DNA of 64,000 nucleotides from Thermosyntropha sp. Its GTDB lineage: Bacteria; Bacillota; Syntrophomonadia; Syntrophomonadales; Syntrophomonadaceae. Both the position numbers and the translations under genes were made by a program. The stretch lies in the NCBI RefSeq assembly GCF_017656155.1, contig NZ_JACDOH010000001.1:186001-250000 (forward strand), given 5' to 3'. Each line of letters starts with the position of its first letter. Within the stretch, counting starts at the first letter, position 1. This document shows, in pieces, positions 27,637-57,333 of the stretch. The notes beneath the pieces are model-generated. The model did no database searches. It was given only the letters and a program-made list of their open reading frames with translations, and was not told the origin of the DNA.

Positions 27637-28986
27637 GTGGGGATATTATTCGGTACAGATGGGGTAAGAGGAATTGCTAATAATGAACTTACTCCGGAAA
27701 TGGCTTTTGATTTAGGAAGGGCAGGAAGCTATATTTTGGCTAAACAAAATGATGGAGAAAAACCTCGTATTTTAGTAGGTAGAGATACCCGTATATCCGG
27801 AGATATGCTGGAAGCAGCTCTTATTGCCGGTATATGTTCTACGGGAGCCGATGCGCTTGTTGCGGGGGTTATTCCCACCCCGGCGGTTGCTTATCTTACC
27901 AGGATTTATCAGGCCTCCTGTGGAATTGTAATTTCTGCTTCCCACAACCCGGTAGAAGATAATGGGATTAAATTTTTCGGTCCTAATGGATATAAGCTGC
28001 CGGATGAAGTGGAAGAAAAAATTGAAAAGCTGGTTTTGGAAGGTACCTATGATCTGCCGCGACCTACCGGAGAAGAAGTCGGACGGGTCTATGAGATAAA
28101 TGAAGCAGTAGATAAGTATGTAGAATATATTAAGGGTATTTACAGTTTAGATGAAAAACTTACCGGTCTTACGATAGTGGTTGACTGCGCCAATGGAGCC
28201 GCATATAAAGCAGCCCCGCTTTTGTGGGAAAGCCTGGGAGCAAAAGTTATATCTATAAACCACCAGCCCAACGGGGTAAATATAAATTACAAATGCGGAT
28301 CTACCCACTTGGAAAGCCTTAAGAGAGCAGTACGCCGGTATAAGGCTGATTTAGGGATAGCTTATGACGGCGATGCTGACCGCTGCTTGGCTGTTGATGA
28401 GCGGGGAGTTGAACTTGACGGTGATCAGATAATGCTCATATGTGCTTTAGATATGAAAAGAAGAGGAATTTTAACCCCTTCCCGGGTGGTAGCCACGGTT
28501 ATGAGCAATATTGGATTAGAAATTGCGCTTAAACGTGAGAATATAGAAATTGACAGCTGCAAAGTCGGAGACCGCTATGTTTTAGAAAAGATGCAGGAGA
28601 CCGGTGCGGTAATAGGTGGAGAACAGTCGGGACATATAATCTTTTTAGAACATGCAACTACTGGAGATGGTCTTTTAACTTCCGTAAAATTGGCAGAGGT
28701 AGTAAAGAGAACCGGAATGCCGCTTTCCAGGCTGGCAGAAGAAATGGAAAAATATCCGCAGATTCTGGTTAATGTGAGATTGGAGAATAAAGAAAAGGTT
28801 TTGAATAAACCTGAAGTAGCTGAAGTATTAAAGCAGGCTGAGCAAAAACTGGGAGAATGGGGCAAACTTGTAGTAAGGCCTTCGGGAACTGAGCCTTTAG
28901 TAAGAATTATGGCTCAGGGACATGATGAAGATCTCTTAAAGGAGGTGATTGAAGAGATAAAACAGGTTATAGAAAGAGAATCTTAA
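27637..28986 (+). CDS. glmM: Phosphoglucosamine mutase
   Basis: A 449-residue phosphohexomutase that converts glucosamine-6-P to glucosamine-1-P for UDP-GlcNAc. The phosphoserine loop ISASHNPVEDNG (Ser about 102), metal site YDGDADRC, sugar loop GGEQSGH and phosphate loop RPSGTEPLVR are intact. I choose GTG 27637, seven bases after GGAGGG, which yields the usual MGILFGTDGVRG start; ATG 27622 precedes that ribosome site. It works with glmS, encoded just downstream, and in other Firmicutes is regulated in concert with CdaA. Confidence 0.96.
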   Translation: MGILFGTDGVRGIANNELTPEMAFDLGRAGSYILAKQNDGEKPRILVGRDTRISGDMLEAALIAGICSTGADALVAGVIPTPAVAYLTRIYQASCGIVISASHNPVEDNGIKFFGPNGYKLPDEVEEKIEKLVLEGTYDLPRPTGEEVGRVYEINEAVDKYVEYIKGIYSLDEKLTGLTIVVDCANGAAYKAAPLLWESLGAKVISINHQPNGVNINYKCGSTHLESLKRAVRRYKADLGIAYDGDADRCLAVDERGVELDGDQIMLICALDMKRRGILTPSRVVATVMSNIGLEIALKRENIEIDSCKVGDRYVLEKMQETGAVIGGEQSGHIIFLEHATTGDGLLTSVKLAEVVKRTGMPLSRLAEEMEKYPQILVNVRLENKEKVLNKPEVAEVLKQAEQKLGEWGKLVVRPSGTEPLVRIMAQGHDEDLLKEVIEEIKQVIERES

Positions 28987-28990
28987 AAAA

Positions 28991-29005
28991 GCCCTTTTAA
29001 AGGGC
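28991..29005 (+). other. Short stem-loop between glmM and the glmS ribozyme
   Basis: GCCCTTT and AAAGGGC pair around a single T, flanked by A runs on both sides. On the + strand there is no T run; on the - strand it would resemble a terminator. It ends 5 nt before the ribozyme cleavage site. Confidence 0.5.
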
Positions 29006-29009
29006 AAAA

Positions 29010-29150
29010 AGCGCCTGCCCCGGCCAATCCGGGTGACGAGGAGGAGGTTTATCGAAATGTCGGCGGGTGCCTCCCGGTGTGCTGCCACCGTAAGTCTGGC
29101 TACAAAACTGGTTAGCAATAATCAGGACAAAAAGCCAGCCAGCAGTTTTT
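29010..29150 (+). ncRNA. glmS ribozyme (GlcN6P-activated)
   Basis: The leader of glmS carries the glmS ribozyme core: GCGCC at 29011 (self-cleavage expected between A29010 and G29011), GACGAGG at 29035-29041, GTTTATCGA at 29047-29055, then TCGGCGG, CTCCCGG and CCGTAAG at 29060-29095. The last arm CTGGC...GCCAG closes at about 29134-29138. Glucosamine-6-phosphate activates cleavage, which destabilises the downstream mRNA and lowers GlmS. The match to the conserved segments known from Bacillus is strong; the 3' boundary is approximate. It is followed by two REP-like hairpin units before glmS. Confidence 0.93.
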
Positions 29151-29311: not shown

Positions 29312-31123
29312 ATGTGTGGAATTATGGGATATATAGGCAAAAATCAGGGTTTGCCGGTAATAATAGATGGATTAAGCAAACTGGAATACCGCGGCTATGA
29401 TTCAGCCGGGGTTGCTTTTTACAAAGATGGCCATATAGAGATTGTAAAGAAAAAAGGAAGGCTTGCTGATTTAAAAAGTGCTTTAAGGGAAATGCCGGTA
29501 AGCCGTATCGGAATAGGCCATACCCGCTGGGCTACCCATGGGGTGCCGAGCGATACTAACGCTCATCCGCATACTGACTGCAGCGGTAGGATTGCCGTAG
29601 TGCACAACGGCATAATTGAAAACTACGCTGTGCTGCGCAAGGATTTGATATTGGAAGGGCATGATTTTGTTTCTGAAACTGACACTGAAGTTATTGCTCA
29701 TCTTATTGAAAAATACTATGATAATTCCCTGGAAGAAGCGGTGAGAAAGGCCCTTAAGCATATGAAAGGTTCTTTTGCCATTGGGGTTATATCAAAGGAT
29801 GAGCCGGATAAGATTATTGCAGCCAAAAAAGATAGTCCCCTTATCGTAGGAATAGGAGAAGGGGAAAATTACATCGCTTCAGACATACCTGCCATATTAA
29901 GCAGGACTAATAAAGTTTATATTATGGAAGACAATCAATTTGCCGTAGTTACGCCGGAAAAGATAGAGTTTACCGACTTTAGCGGAAATTCTATTAATAA
30001 AGAGATATATCAAGTTCCTTGGGATCCGGTGGCAGCAGAAAAAGGCGGCTATGAGCATTTTATGCTTAAAGAAATTCACGAGCAGCCGGAGGCTCTGCGC
30101 CAGACTTTAAGAGGAAAAATAAAAGCCGGTAGGGTAGAATTAGATAATCTGGCGATTGATGCGGAAAAAATAAATAAAATTTATATTGTAGCCTGCGGCA
30201 CCGCTTATCACGCCGGACTGGTGGGGAAAAAGGCCATAGAAAAGCTGGCTAAGATCCCGGTTGAAACAGATATTGCCTCTGAATTCAGGTACCGGGAAAT
30301 ATTATGGCAGCCGAATGACCTTATGGTAGTTATAAGCCAGTCAGGAGAAACCGCTGATACTTTGGCTGCTTTAAGAGAAGCTAAAAGAAACAGCATAAAG
30401 GTTTTAGCGGTAACTAATGTGGTGGGAAGCTCGGTTGCCCGGGAGGCAGATGAAGTTATTTACACCCATGCCGGACCGGAAATAGCTGTGGCTTCTACCA
30501 AGGCTTATTCCACCCAGCTTTTAATCATGTATCTTTTAGCACTTTACCTGGCTCAGGCGAGAAAAACCTGTGCTGAGGAAGAGATAAGGAAGATTACCGA
30601 AGAAATAATAAATATAGATGAGAAGGTGGAAGAGGTATTAAAACAGGAAGAAAAACTTAAGGAGCTCGCTTACAAATACCGTGATGTGCAGAGCACCTTT
30701 TTCCTGGGGCGCAGCCTTGATTATGCGGTTGCCATGGAAGGAGCCCTTAAACTTAAAGAAATTTCTTATATCCACGCTGAGGCTTATGCGGCCGGGGAGT
30801 TAAAACACGGTCCTTTGGCACTTATAAGCGAAGGAGTTCCGGTTTTATCACTTATTACCCAGGATGAACTGGTTGAAAAAACTATGTCCAATATCAAAGA
30901 AGTAAAAGCCAGAGGGGCAGTGGTGATTGCTATCTGCAAACACAACCTGCAGGAAGAATGTCAGGAATGTGAGGAGCAGATACTTTTGCCGGATATGAAT
31001 CCTTTCTTAACCCCGATAGTTTCCGTAGTGCCTCTGCAGATGTTTGCCTATTACATGGCGGTGTTCAGAGGAGCCGATGTGGATAAACCGAGAAACCTGG
31101 CCAAGTCGGTGACGGTAGAATAA
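29312..31123 (+). CDS. glmS: Glutamine--fructose-6-phosphate aminotransferase (isomerizing)
   Basis: A 603-residue GlmS that makes glucosamine-6-P from fructose-6-P and glutamine. The N-terminal glutaminase domain starts MCGIMGYIG with the Cys2 nucleophile. Two SIS isomerase domains follow (about 285-415 and 455-595), with ISQSGETADT, ASTKAYSTQ and the C-terminal KPRNLAKSVTVE ending that is invariant in GlmS. A TGGAGG site precedes the ATG. Expression is expected to be controlled by the upstream ribozyme. Together with glmM it feeds peptidoglycan precursor synthesis. Confidence 0.97.
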   Translation: MCGIMGYIGKNQGLPVIIDGLSKLEYRGYDSAGVAFYKDGHIEIVKKKGRLADLKSALREMPVSRIGIGHTRWATHGVPSDTNAHPHTDCSGRIAVVHNGIIENYAVLRKDLILEGHDFVSETDTEVIAHLIEKYYDNSLEEAVRKALKHMKGSFAIGVISKDEPDKIIAAKKDSPLIVGIGEGENYIASDIPAILSRTNKVYIMEDNQFAVVTPEKIEFTDFSGNSINKEIYQVPWDPVAAEKGGYEHFMLKEIHEQPEALRQTLRGKIKAGRVELDNLAIDAEKINKIYIVACGTAYHAGLVGKKAIEKLAKIPVETDIASEFRYREILWQPNDLMVVISQSGETADTLAALREAKRNSIKVLAVTNVVGSSVAREADEVIYTHAGPEIAVASTKAYSTQLLIMYLLALYLAQARKTCAEEEIRKITEEIINIDEKVEEVLKQEEKLKELAYKYRDVQSTFFLGRSLDYAVAMEGALKLKEISYIHAEAYAAGELKHGPLALISEGVPVLSLITQDELVEKTMSNIKEVKARGAVVIAICKHNLQEECQECEEQILLPDMNPFLTPIVSVVPLQMFAYYMAVFRGADVDKPRNLAKSVTVE

Positions 31124-31251
31124 TTTATTACTCCCGACCATGCGAAAAAATGTATTTCTCATTTATACCTTTCCCTCATGCGAAAAAAGTGGTTCCGTTT
31201 GAGGAGAAAAAAGGAAAAAGGATTAAGGAACAGGTTCATACAGAACTAAGA

Positions 31252-31310
31252 AAGGGATAAGTGGTAAGCCTTGAAAAATCAAGGTTTACGCACTTATTCC
31301 TTTTTCCTTT
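31252..31310 (+). terminator. Long hairpin terminator downstream of glmS
   Basis: AAGGGATAAGTG/CACTTATTCCTT pairs outside and TAAGCCTTGA/TCAAGGTTTA inside (about 22 bp in total with G-T pairs and a small bulge), followed by TTTTTCCTTTT. It lies 128 bp after glmS. A purine-rich stretch at 31202-31222 could compete for the 3' arm. Confidence 0.7.
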
Positions 31311-31651
31311 TATCCTTGACCCTGCCCCTTTTGGAACAACTTTTTCACACAAACTTGAGGTGTATTTGGTGAATTATAGGAAATCTAATACTGCCTTACG
31401 GAAAAACTTTATTACCTCTCGGAAAATGACATGTAGATTTTATGTGGGTTTGCGGAAGCAAAAATGGAAAGGGTTTTTAAAAATCAATATATGTTTTTGG
31501 AAAATATCAGAAGATATTTTGAAAAAATTTTTTTAAAATGTGTTTAATATTTAGTGCTGTTTAAGAGAGGTTTTTATGTTTAAATTTAAGTAGAGTGCTC
31601 TAATGAAAAATTTATTATGTTGAATATTTATATGGAAATAGGGGTGAGACA
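31311..31651. other. AT-rich gap upstream of the broken HD-GYP gene
   Basis: These 341 bp hold no convincing gene. A short frame around 31261-31536 lacks a ribosome site and resembles nothing known. The sequence is AT-rich and marks the start of a region with damaged genes. Confidence 0.5.
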
Positions 31652-33302
31652 GTGTCTGGTCGTGCGTTAAGATTAGAACTAAGTTTGTATCCGAGTGATT
31701 TAAAAAGGAATTACTTGATTTTATTGAAAAAAATAATATAGACTGCTGTTTGCTTTATGCCTTATATAGCAACATGGTGATTAGAATATTGGAAGTAAAG
31801 AGAGATAATATAAACATAGAATATAATTTGTCTGAATACATAAATTTAGAGATTAACAAAAAATGTCAATTTGCTGATGTTTTAAATTTAAGAAAATCAA
31901 TTGAAAAACATAAAGATGATGACAAAAATATGCTTTTAAAAAATGTTGTGCATGAAATTTATATCCCGGTTGAACAAAATGGCAGGGTTTTGGGGTATGT
32001 TTATCTGGGTAATTTTGCGGAAGAAATAAATGATTTTGATATAAAAAGACTAAATCAAATAATAGAAAACAATATATATGAAATATTAAGACTGGAACAA
32101 ATGAAAATATCTTATAAGATTACTATTGAGAATACAATATTTTTTCATGAAGTATTTAAAAATAGATCTTCTTTTATGGTAAACCATATATATAATGTTG
32201 CTTCTTGGGCGGTACAGATAGCTAAGAGACTAAATTATTCTGATGAAGATTTGACTAGAATTTATTTGGCTGCTCTTTTACATGATATAGGTAAAATCTT
32301 TATTGACGAGGATATTTTGAATAAGCCGGGAAAATTAACAGAACAAGAATATGAGGAAATAAAAAAGCATGTTAGAATTGGTCAATATTTAGCTAGGTAT
32401 ATGTTTTTATTTGATAGAGACAGCCATATTGATGAATGGATATTACAGCATCATGAAAAATGGGACGGCACAGGATATCCCAGGCAATTAAAAGGTGAGC
32501 TGATCTTAAAGGAGCCAGAATTTTGAAAATGGCAGATGCCATGGATGCGATGCTTTCTGAAAGGAGTTATAAAAAACAAATGGATATTAAGGAAACGATA
32601 TTAGAAATCAAAAGATGCAGGGGAAAGGATTTTGACCCCGAGATAGCAGATATAGCTATAGAAATATTAAATGCGAGACTAACCGCAACTGAGCAGGTTT
32701 TTGATGATATAGTGATGCCTGCCAATTTGTTGTTTAGGGCAAATAAGAGAATTTATACTTTAAGTGGTTTCGTCCTAAAGCAAGCTGAACAAGTTTTGTT
32801 TTTGGCAGTAAATTTTATTGATGATTTAGATGATCTTTATGTAGAAAATTTGATTTTAGCCTTTGAGAGGCAAAATATACTTTACAAATTTAAAGTTAAA
32901 AAATATGAAAAAATTGAGGATAATAGACTTCTGTTGAAGGAACTGTCGCCTTTAGAAGCTAATTCAGCATTTAAGCTTTTGTGGATGTTAAGTGGAGATT
33001 TGGTTAATTTAAAGAATAAACAGGTGAAAAGAATAATAATTACGGCTATATCGGGAGAAAGTTTGGATTTTAGTTTTGAAGAAGAAAATGTTCAAATTGA
33101 TGAAAATGATATTTATGCTGTTATAATTAGGTTTGAAGACGGAACAAATGTGCCGGTTTCGGGGAGAATAACCGAAAGGATTAAGATAAATAGAAGAACT
33201 CACTATACTTTTGAGTTTGTTGACCTGCAGGAAAAATATCGGGATGAAATATTTAGGCAGATTTTCCGCAAGCAGATAAGTATAAAGAAGATGTTTAATT
33301 AG
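31652..33302 (+). pseudogene. HD-GYP/PilZ protein gene interrupted by two -1 frameshifts
   Basis: GTG 31652 behind GGGGTGAG opens a frame reading MSGRALRLELSLYPSDLK, which must shift -1 near 31700-31706 to continue as KELLDFIEKNNIDCC and join the frame covering 31750-32526. That frame holds a sensor-like region, then HD-GYP motifs HDIGK and HHEKWDGTGYP. At 32506-32511 another -1 shift is needed to continue as GARILKMADAMDAM into the frame ending at 33302. The C-terminal part (about the last 200 residues) has a PilZ-like ISGESLDFSF segment and a YRDEIFRQIFRKQI tail, suggesting a c-di-GMP-binding output. Either one-base losses in homopolymers have made a pseudogene, or there are sequencing errors, or recoding occurs at TTA-AAR codons. 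Confidence 0.82.
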
Positions 33303-33504
33303 TTTTTTATTTGAGATTAGGAAGCTGGAGATTGTTAAGGTGCAGAACATAGCAGAAAAATAGGTTAAAAGAGAAAGAGATTTTATTTTATAAAAATTTT
33401 TATTTATTATGGTTTAAACAATTCAATAAAATAAGCTATAATCCTCTATTTTGGATGACAAAGTTTTACAAATAAAAAAAGAAAACACATATTTTAAGAA
33501 ATGC

Positions 33505-33548
33505 AAAGACTGGATGACTCAGTAATTATGAAGGAGTATCCAGTCTTT
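33505..33548 (-). terminator. Stem-loop at the 3' end of the truncated membrane gene
   Basis: AAAGACTGGAT/ATCCAGTCTTT plus inner ACTC/GAGT give a 15-bp stem with one bulged base and a 13-nt loop. On the minus strand it follows the stop of the 33584-34240 gene and ends in CTTTGCATTTCTT, a modest T run. Confidence 0.6.
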
Positions 33549-33583
33549 AATGGATGAAAATTAAATATATTGTGGGGGAGAAT

Positions 33584-34240
33584 TTAAGCTAAAGCAGGTT
33601 CGGCAGTTTGATCTAGATTCTTTAAGTCTTTGTAAGAACCAAGATCGGTATGCACTTCTTCCCCTTTGAGGATATTGCGTTTGTATTTAAAGACTTTGTA
33701 ATAGTGGTATACAAATACTGCCACATTAGAAGCTAAAGCTAATCCGCTTACTATCATCAAGGCTGTCGGGTTGTGGGAAGATTTTACTGCAAACATTGAA
33801 GTATCTACGAAGTTGGGGAAAGTCATGACAAACATCATCCATACGCCAAGGGTATGGGTTCTGTGTTGCAGCCATGCTCCTTTGCCTCCACTTAAGAAAG
33901 CGGGGATGGTGCAGGATAAGAGCAGTGCTGCTCCGGCGTAGAAAGAGTGATCGGGCACGCAGTTATAAACATAAGCAAAGTTCCACAGATCGTAAGCGAT
34001 TATCCAAAACCAAAGCTGGTCAGGCCAAATCATGTCGCGATGCTTGCGGTTCTGAGAGATATAGATGCCAGCCCAGCCGGAGATGGTTATAATGTTAAGA
34101 ATGCCGGCAATTCCGTTCATAATGTTCCAGGGACCGCCCACGATGAGCATTCCGTCTACAATTCCATTAAAGCTGAAGCATTGGAAGTCGCGGATTACAG
34201 CTTCCATGATGTTAATTGACAGAATGGCCGGGGGGAACAT
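33584..34240 (-). pseudogene. 5'-truncated polytopic membrane protein (DUF5692-like)
   Basis: The 218-residue frame has about six membrane spans and the conserved stretches MFPPAILSINIMEAVIRDFQ, WPDQLWFWIIAYDLWNFAY and GAWLQHRTHTLGVWMMF. From memory these match an uncharacterised membrane family (DUF5692) whose members have about 320 residues and about 100 more at the N terminus. Here translation would begin inside a conserved block, there is no ribosome site before the ATG, and a stop lies about 17 codons upstream. I therefore read it as a 5'-truncated remnant, though a short expressed form cannot be excluded. No function is known. Confidence 0.6.
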
Positions 34241-34362
34241 TAAAAAGGATTTATAAATTTTTATATTTTTTTTAACCTGATTTTTAAGTTAATTTGTATT
34301 TTATGGATATTAAGATGCTATTTTTATGTATAAAGACAGCATTAAGGTGTATACAATGCGGA

Positions 34363-34392
34363 TTGACTAAGCTCTGTTTAATAAACTAAAAT
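34363..34392 (+). promoter_or_regulatory. Candidate promoter of the PHA-like cluster
   Basis: TTGACT (34363-34368) and TAAAAT (34387-34392) are spaced 18 bp apart, 87 bp before the first gene of the cluster. It is the best match in this 239-bp gap, which otherwise shows only AT-rich sequence. Confidence 0.45.
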
Positions 34393-34479
34393 TGAATTAT
34401 GAATACCTGTTAAAATATTCATTTAAAAGAAACATTAACCTTATAAGGTATTTAGTAATTAAAAAGGGGGAGGTTGTAT

Positions 34480-34836
34480 ATGATACTGGAAAGAGAAAAA
34501 ATGGAGAAGATGTGGGAATCTGGTGCCAAGATGTCAGAATTATACTGGGGTTTATGGAAAGTTGCGGCGGAAAGTTCAAAATTATGGAAGGAAAAGAGCC
34601 ATTCAATGATGAAAAACTATATGAAAACGAGTAAGGAAATGCTTGATGAACAGATGAAATGGTTTGATGCGGTTCTGATGCAGGCAAGCAAAGGACAGCA
34701 GCAAATGTATACCGTTACCAAGGAAATTGTAATGAGCTCTGTGGAAAATATGAGAAATGCATCGTTTAATCCCTGGCTTTCTTTTATGCAGATGATGAAT
34801 TCGAATGATATAAATGAAGGTGAAAAAACAAATTAA
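34480..34836 (+). CDS. Small phasin/PhaR-like protein
   Basis: A 118-residue, Met- and Lys-rich, helical protein. Residues 10-90 look amphipathic and coiled-coil-like (KMSELYWGLWKVAAESSKLW, MLDEQMKWFDAVLMQASK), as in phasins or the PhaR subunit of class IV PHA synthases. I infer this from composition, size and position: it is the first gene of a three-gene cluster whose last gene encodes a PhaC-like enzyme. It would bind granule surfaces or activate the synthase. ATG 34480 follows GGGGGAGG by 6 bp; TTG 34474 is in frame but too close. No residue motif proves the assignment. Confidence 0.6.
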   Translation: MILEREKMEKMWESGAKMSELYWGLWKVAAESSKLWKEKSHSMMKNYMKTSKEMLDEQMKWFDAVLMQASKGQQQMYTVTKEIVMSSVENMRNASFNPWLSFMQMMNSNDINEGEKTN

Positions 34837-55747: not shown

Positions 55748-55894
55748 TATCAAATAAATAAGTTTTATTGCTGATAAAGACAATATTGTTGATTATTTTT
55801 GAGAAAGTTTTAAAATGATATTAGCATATAAGCATATATTTATATATTTATTCCTGAACAAAAAATATTCCCTGAAGAGAAAGAAGGTGAACAT

Positions 55895-56281
55895 ATGATA
55901 GAAGATGTTTTTAAAGCGCTTGGCGAACCTACCCGTTTGCGGATTATAAGGCTTCTTGCCGAAAAAGAGCTGTGTGTTTGTGACCTGGAAGTAATAATGG
56001 GGATAAGCCAGCCGCGTATTTCCCAGCATGTCAAGATTCTAAGGCAGGCAGGTCTTATAACGGAACGCAGGGAAGGCCAAAAAAGGATGCTTACCTTTAA
56101 CCGGGATTTTTTTACCCAGGTTTTAGATGATTTTTGCCTTTTTATGAATCTTCCTTTAGAAGAAGTGGAGGGATTTGAAGAAGAAGTTAAACGGATGAAG
56201 AAAATAGAAGGCTGTGATACTTGTGCGATTAAAGTAAAAAACATGAGAGCAAATGAAACTTGCAAGAGGAGGAGTAAATAG
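55895..56281 (+). CDS. arsR: ArsR family metalloregulator
   Basis: A 128-residue ArsR/SmtB repressor. The winged helix contains ALGEPTRLRIIRLL, the metal-binding ELCVCDL motif (CVC as in As(III)-sensing ArsR) and SQPRISQHVKILRQAGLI. A C-terminal Cys pair (GCDTC) could add a ligand. It opens the arsenic cluster: derepression by arsenite or a related trivalent arsenical is expected. The permease gene starts 2 bp after its stop. An AT-rich stretch upstream (55818-55855) could hold the operator. Confidence 0.93.
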   Translation: MIEDVFKALGEPTRLRIIRLLAEKELCVCDLEVIMGISQPRISQHVKILRQAGLITERREGQKRMLTFNRDFFTQVLDDFCLFMNLPLEEVEGFEEEVKRMKKIEGCDTCAIKVKNMRANETCKRRSK

Positions 56282-56283
56282 TC

Positions 56284-57333
56284 ATGAATTTTATAATTAC
56301 TATGCTTCAAGGTGGCGTAAAAGAGCTTTTAAATTATCTTTCCGCCCATGTTATAACATGTTTGGTGCCCGCTTTCTTTATAGCCGGGGCTATGGCAGTT
56401 TTGGTTACCAAAGGGGCGGTTATCAAGTATTTTGGAGCCCAGGCGAAAAGATGGATAGCTTATGGAGTAGCTTCTGTATCAGGAATGCTTCTTGCGGTTT
56501 GTTCATGTACGGTTTTGCCTTTGTTTGCCGGTATTTATGGTTTGGGAGCAGGGATAGGTCCGGCAGTAACCTTTCTTTATTCTGGACCTGCCATAAATAT
56601 ACTGGCAATTGCTCTTACTGGAGCGGCCATCGGCTGGCATATGGGGTTAGCTCGTGGAGTTGGGGCAATTATTTTTTCAATAGTAATAGGTATAATAATG
56701 TCATTTTTATTTCACAATTCTGAAAAAGAAAGACTTGGTGAAATTGAGACTCTGCCGGGAGAAAGCAGTGAGAAGTCAGGTAAGTTTTTAGTAGTATTTT
56801 TTGGTGTTATGGTAGCTATACTTATTGTAAGCACCAGCAAGCTGGAACCTTGGCTTAAGGTTGCTATAGATATTGGGCTTATTAACTCACTGGCTATTAT
56901 GGTTCATCACTATTTTGTTGAAGGGGAGTTTAACTCCTGGATGGAAGAGACCTGGAGCTTGGTTAAGATGGTAGTTCCTACTCTTTTGATAGGAGTATTT
57001 CTTGTAGGTATGGTTACGGCAGTTCTTCCACCGGAGTGGATTGCCAGATATGTAGGAAGCAATACTTTTGGGGCCAATTTTGCCGCTTCCCTGATAGGGG
57101 CTTTATTCTACTTTTCCACTTTAACGGAAGTTCCTATCGTAAAAGGACTTGTTGATCTGGGAATGAATCAGGGACCTGCTTTAGCTCTTCTTCTGGCGGG
57201 TCCAGCGGTGAGCATACCAAATCTCCTGGTGGTAAACCGAATTATGGGATTTAAAAGAACTTTGGCTTATTTTATCCTGGTTGTGATAATGGCGACTTTA
57301 ACTGGCTGGATTTATGGATTTTTCTTTGGCTAA
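56284..57333 (+). CDS. arsP: ArsP-type permease (DUF318 family)
   Basis: A 349-residue membrane protein with about eight to ten spans in two halves separated by a charged loop (about 145-170). The CSCTVLPLFAGIYGLGAGIGPAVTFLYSGPAINILA block is diagnostic of the ArsP/SO_0444 permease family, with the Cys pair that in ArsP binds trivalent organoarsenicals. Family members export methylarsenite or aromatic arsenicals. It starts 2 bp after arsR, so they are co-regulated. A role for another thiophilic metalloid is possible. Confidence 0.88.
   Translation: MNFIITMLQGGVKELLNYLSAHVITCLVPAFFIAGAMAVLVTKGAVIKYFGAQAKRWIAYGVASVSGMLLAVCSCTVLPLFAGIYGLGAGIGPAVTFLYSGPAINILAIALTGAAIGWHMGLARGVGAIIFSIVIGIIMSFLFHNSEKERLGEIETLPGESSEKSGKFLVVFFGVMVAILIVSTSKLEPWLKVAIDIGLINSLAIMVHHYFVEGEFNSWMEETWSLVKMVVPTLLIGVFLVGMVTAVLPPEWIARYVGSNTFGANFAASLIGALFYFSTLTEVPIVKGLVDLGMNQGPALALLLAGPAVSIPNLLVVNRIMGFKRTLAYFILVVIMATLTGWIYGFFFG

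Follow-up and report, generated by a model that had tools for sequence, protein, structure and literature searches.

The gene at positions 31652-33302 of the window, i.e. of the whole stretch of 64,000 nucleotides analysed here (contig 1, positions 186001-250000, in a Thermosyntropha genome of 2.11 Mb in 15 contigs), is distributed over three reading frames. The question raised by this locus is whether its two frame changes are bridged by recoding during translation, whether they are errors of the assembly, or whether they mark a gene that has decayed in the cell.

Layout of the gene and its frame changes

The three-frame translation describes a single gene of GAF-like, HD-GYP and PilZ-like composition, running from a GTG at 31652 to 33302, with the following features:

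31640..31647, + strand: Shine-Dalgarno-like AGGGGTGA, ending 4 bases 5' of the GTG; from its sequence, putatively functional in that role
31652..31741, + strand: frame-0 open reading frame with the N-terminus of the gene, 29 codons from GTG to the TAG at 31739-31741, which aligns to the corresponding end of the C2 paralogue
31699..31706, + strand: first frame change, T-TTA-AAA (31699-31705) inside TTTAAAAA, one base short
31699..32526, + strand: middle frame, open over 31699-32523 with the stop TGA at 32524-32526, covering a region that appears GAF-like by comparison with the homologues, together with the greater part of the HD-GYP domain (HDIGK, HHEKWDGTGYP)
31935..31941, + strand: a second in-frame T-TTA-AAA, in the middle frame, without a frame change; an internal control identical to the first site
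32492..32499, + strand: Shine-Dalgarno-like AAGGTGAG, coding for the KGE of the HD-GYP motif
32499..33302, + strand: last frame, open over 32499-33299 with the stop extending to 33302, covering the end of the HD-GYP domain and the PilZ-like C-terminus
32505..32514, + strand: second frame change, C-TTA-AAG-GAG, one base short, C-TTA-AAG being 32505-32511

That an HD-GYP/PilZ gene is split here by two -1 frame changes, as an earlier sequence-only reading had stated, is confirmed by both the translation and the homology, each change corresponding to one base missing in comparison with the homologues. The paralogue from contig C2 of the same genome aligns with the window gene in two frames meeting at 32514 (46% and 47% identity), as does the homologue from T. 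lipolytica, and the protein alignment places the second gap most likely just 3' of the GAG. Since the homology to these intact relatives spans both the middle and the last frame, the two are parts of one gene; continuity over the first frame change is based on the alignment of the short N-terminus to that of the C2 copy. The good coding sense that had been ascribed to all three frames is kept in the two long ones.

Intact relatives, domains and neighbourhood

The intact paralogue in the source genome (G000 C2:249140-250783) is a single open frame of 552 amino acids, and the homologue in T. lipolytica DSM 11003 (G001, the only congener among the genomes searched; gene on record NZ_FQWY01000035.1) is a single open frame of 562 amino acids. 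The three copies are about equally distant from one another (window-C2 46.5%, window-lipolytica 47.7% and C2-lipolytica 47.9% identity), and the best hits between samples of the two genomes have a median identity of 76.6%; the duplication is thus old or the gene is fast-evolving. In the tree of the HD domain the three copies are grouped (99/94), the order inside the group not being firm (93/62). Concerning the family as a whole, some match at the threshold used was found in 50 of the 54 genomes, and among the matches listed none was a homologue split at the same sites. For some of the matches listed, on HD-GYP proteins other than these, stop codons are indicated. The combination of weak GAF, HD-GYP and weak PilZ matches near full length was seen, among the matches listed from the 54 genomes, in the two Thermosyntropha genomes only, and it occurs in a single chain at L026 3941-5560 and at L116 9140-10783 (- strand).

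The HD-GYP family is known for the hydrolysis of cyclic-di-GMP, and the window gene presumably represents a cyclic-di-GMP phosphodiesterase. With the HD-GYP phosphodiesterases that have a PilZ-like C-terminus the window gene shares HDIGK, HHEKWDGTGYP and ADAMDAM as well as the Pfam domain HD_5, which is divided over the segments (profile positions 7-123 in the middle frame, E=1.1e-20, and 126-170 in the last, of 170). It differs from them in the frame broken twice, in a glutamine at the position GYP+2, which is glycine in 100 of 110 motif stretches and glutamine in none, in a PilZ match below the Pfam cut-off, and in its near-full-length relatives, which among the matches listed are confined to the C2 and T. 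lipolytica loci. The former HD-GYP/PilZ label is therefore borne out for the HD-GYP motifs and HD_5, but less so for PilZ: the C-terminus of the window gene scores 18.1 bits against a cut-off of 22.5, and all three copies, the intact ones included, stay within 16.6-18.1 bits. GAF_2 is matched weakly, and in the two intact homologues only.

As regards the condition of the window copy, its HD_5 score is 108.7 bits (124.5 and 127.1 in the intact copies), and its C-terminal domain reads TAISG for TRISG and GTNVP for GTRVP, so that two arginines common to the C2 and T. lipolytica copies are gone. The metal-binding motifs are kept, and there are no stops beyond the two caused by the shifts. Residues unique to one copy in the three-copy alignment number 70 in the window, 70 in C2 and 67 in T. 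lipolytica, i.e. equal counts that argue against accelerated change in the window copy. Its low G+C content (30.1%) is no sign of decay either, because the intact C2 copy is equally low (30.4%). A structure was predicted for the T. lipolytica homologue alone, with a mean pLDDT of 40.8, and was left out of account.

The neighbourhood contains one further feature:

33584..34240, - strand: DUF5692 gene without its first third (Pfam DUF5692 positions 97-302 of 304)

This gene, lacking the first 96 profile positions and 89.6% identical to residues 99-320 of a T. lipolytica open reading frame, is a second damaged gene in the HD-GYP interval; a longer copy, with an open frame of 317 amino acids, lies at G000 C7:29696-30568. 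The glmS-DUF5692 interval of T. lipolytica is occupied by ~8 kb of other genes, among which no remnant of an HD-GYP gene could be recognised. From glmS to a gene that we take to be phasin-like (window 31124-34459) the distance is ~3 kb here and ~15 kb in T. lipolytica, with different content.

Probable decay, with sequencing error and fission as rivals

Based on the above results, the window locus is probably a very recent pseudogene, derived from a redundant, duplicated GAF-like/HD-GYP/PilZ-like gene that presumably encoded a cyclic-di-GMP phosphodiesterase. This reading is favoured because intact relatives exist in both the same genome and T. lipolytica, with none split likewise among the matches listed, because frame changes are rare elsewhere in the sample and the adjacent DUF5692 gene is truncated, and because the corresponding interval of T. 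lipolytica is free of HD-GYP genes. Relaxed constraint may be read from the glutamine at GYP+2, the two lost arginines and the lower HD_5 score, with the unique-residue counts remaining equal. Two one-base deletions would have broken the frame, the first in an A run close to the start and the second towards the end of the HD domain; translation from the GTG would then yield, if the sequence is right, only a 29-residue peptide. The locus would thus not produce the HD-GYP enzyme, whose role would presumably be covered by the intact C2 copy. Both the reality of the deletions in the cell and the silence of the copy are inferred here, as is the enzymatic role of the family. Given the lack of further stops, the preserved metal motifs and the equal unique-residue counts, the event must have been very recent. 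The earlier proposal of a simple cause, i.e. one-base losses in a recent pseudogene or base-calling errors, is supported.

It should be pointed out that the absence of extra stops and the preservation of the motifs are equally expected if two errors of sequencing or assembly had been introduced into a live second gene copy. This is the main rival to decay, a serious one although unlikely. It fits the single-base nature of both shortages, one of them in a homopolymer, the lack of other damage, the intact start and Shine-Dalgarno-like site, the equal unique-residue counts and the AT-rich surroundings (26-33% G+C in 500-base steps), which could be poorly covered. It also agrees with the section of Antonov et al. 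(2013; PMC3711429) on BLAST-confirmed frameshift singletons, among which sequencing errors are expected to outnumber indels. The window gene resembles the singleton fs-genes of GeneTack, as described in that section, in showing changes isolated in one genome, intact homologues, Pfam support and no conserved motif, and differs from them in having two shifts of the same direction and in being known from the assembly alone. On the other hand, there is no long homopolymer at the second site, and errors leave the loss of family-conserved residues unexplained.

The frequency of such changes elsewhere also speaks against errors. A survey of T. lipolytica open reading frames (545 kb) against 464 kb of the source genome, with ~189 kb covered, is blind to shifts close to gene ends and to genes with no T. 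lipolytica match. After some rows had been set aside, it yielded only one other sense-strand gene with a changed frame, the AMP-binding ligase at C2:149715-151585, which also has a stop. At most ~4.7 events per 188 kb correspond, by a hand calculation, to ~0.04 expected in the window gene, so that two errors together are unlikely unless their cause is local. Given this rarity, frame errors are not general in the assembly. The ligase-like gene (L202 715-2585), whose frame changes near L202:1290-1356 and which is also interrupted by an in-frame TAG, looks like another decayed paralogue; spare copies thus seem genuinely to decay in this genome.

The survey returned 10 rows from the source genome: two for the window HD-GYP gene (one of them via another T. 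lipolytica HD-GYP gene), two for the ligase and six that were set aside, as follows:

L109 4093-4616; L125 3602-4200; window 28653-29136 and 55889-56352: antisense to intact sense open reading frames, spanning gene boundaries
L109 13049-13284: opposite sense matches
L125 6859-7843: same strand, judged to be sequence 5' of a start codon

The intact open reading frames opposite the L109 rows are presumably those of ribosomal proteins; rRNA as the cause of these rows was rejected, the Rfam search of L109 2500-14500 being empty. Frame changes in L111, L119 and L121, found when the sample was compared with itself and partly located in repeats, were excluded from the count. Those at L119 4849-5141 and L121 15510-15845 lie between repeat copies that are mostly 94-98% similar, possibly remains of mobile elements. 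A hexamer coding scan of the 464 kb was dropped, its 404 neighbouring-frame pairs being seemingly for the most part gene overlaps and chance frames.

A division into two genes, with the last frame translated on its own from the TTG at 32523 into a PilZ-like protein devoid of the HD active site, is very improbable. Such a fragment of 259 amino acids would have good coding sense and an AAAGGAG (32508-32514) 8 bases 5' of the TTG, but it would begin within the HD domain, its PilZ-like part lacks the arginines common to the intact copies, the AAAGGAG consists of codons of the parent gene, and no homologue is divided in this way among the matches listed.

The value of the locus lies mainly in annotation, where the label of a probable pseudogene, qualified by the chance of sequencing error, is to be preferred to that of a recoded gene; the observation is real and its explanation ordinary.

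The case against programmed frameshifting at the TTA-AAR sites

The least probable of the explanations, which we regard as very improbable, is that ribosomes are programmed to shift by -1 at each of the two TTA-AAR sites and in this way make the full protein, and by the tests run the window gene lies outside the programmed-frameshift class. The idea came from the sequence-only reading, and part of its basis is sound: T-TTA-AAA at 31699-31705 is a canonical heptamer of the form X-XXY-YYZ, a Shine-Dalgarno-like stretch lies 5 bases 5' of the second site, and the two long frames keep their coding sense. The idea itself finds no support. A conserved shift site is a criterion for recoding in the relevant section of Antonov et al. 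(2013; PMC3711429), and in the two close homologues the frame stays open across either site. The same T-TTA-AAA is read in frame without a shift at 31935-31941 of the window gene, and the heptamer is common elsewhere in the genome, occurring in frame 104 times, in 78 of the 188 long open reading frames sampled. The second site, C-TTA-AAG, is present where it had been described, but it does not fit X-XXY-YYZ.

Concerning the Shine-Dalgarno-like stretch, its presence before the second site is confirmed, but not a stimulatory role, since AAGGTGAG codes for the KGE of the family. Of 100 homologous GYP-to-ARI stretches (106 found, 6 dropped for their spacing; 30 in a stricter version), 32 contain a strong string of this kind. 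No structure beyond that of shuffled sequences was seen in the 100 nt 3' of each site (z 0.35 and -0.01), and Rfam matched positions 31100-34500 with plant and plastid families only, all under their gathering scores. Slippage on TTA-AAG at the second site would produce KGARI, in contrast to REARI in both C2 and T. lipolytica, while a gap just after the GAG would read KEARI; this argument rests on the two close homologues, because the residue is variable in the wider family (E in 11 and G in 1 of 100). Among the papers listed for HD-GYP, frameshift and PilZ together, none appears, from its title and the start of its abstract, to concern recoding of such a gene. The inefficiencies of two successive shifts would, moreover, multiply, and a lineage-specific recoding without relatives, in which two such -1 shifts maintain a low level of the full-length phosphodiesterase, is very improbable.

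Programmed -1 frameshifting of the dnaX type offers a comparison: the window gene shares with it the X-XXY-YYZ pattern at T-TTA-AAA and the Shine-Dalgarno-like stretch 5' of one site, whereas it lacks the conservation and the stimulatory hairpin, and its second heptamer is non-canonical. The locus is useful as a negative example, in which codon choice and the conserved KGE motif gave rise to a canonical heptamer and a Shine-Dalgarno-like stretch, and which is told apart from recoding by homologues, a silent copy of the heptamer and alignment at the level of residues.

The pairing of TTA-AAR sites in the intervals allowed for the two shifts, which had made recoding seem worth excluding, is real but only mildly unlikely by chance. 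The window gene has five in-frame TTA-AAR pairs, such a pair being present in 7% of its 8-codon and 11% of its 13-codon windows; the corresponding values for the long open reading frames of the genome sample are 2.8% of 27-nt and 4.3% of 42-nt windows.
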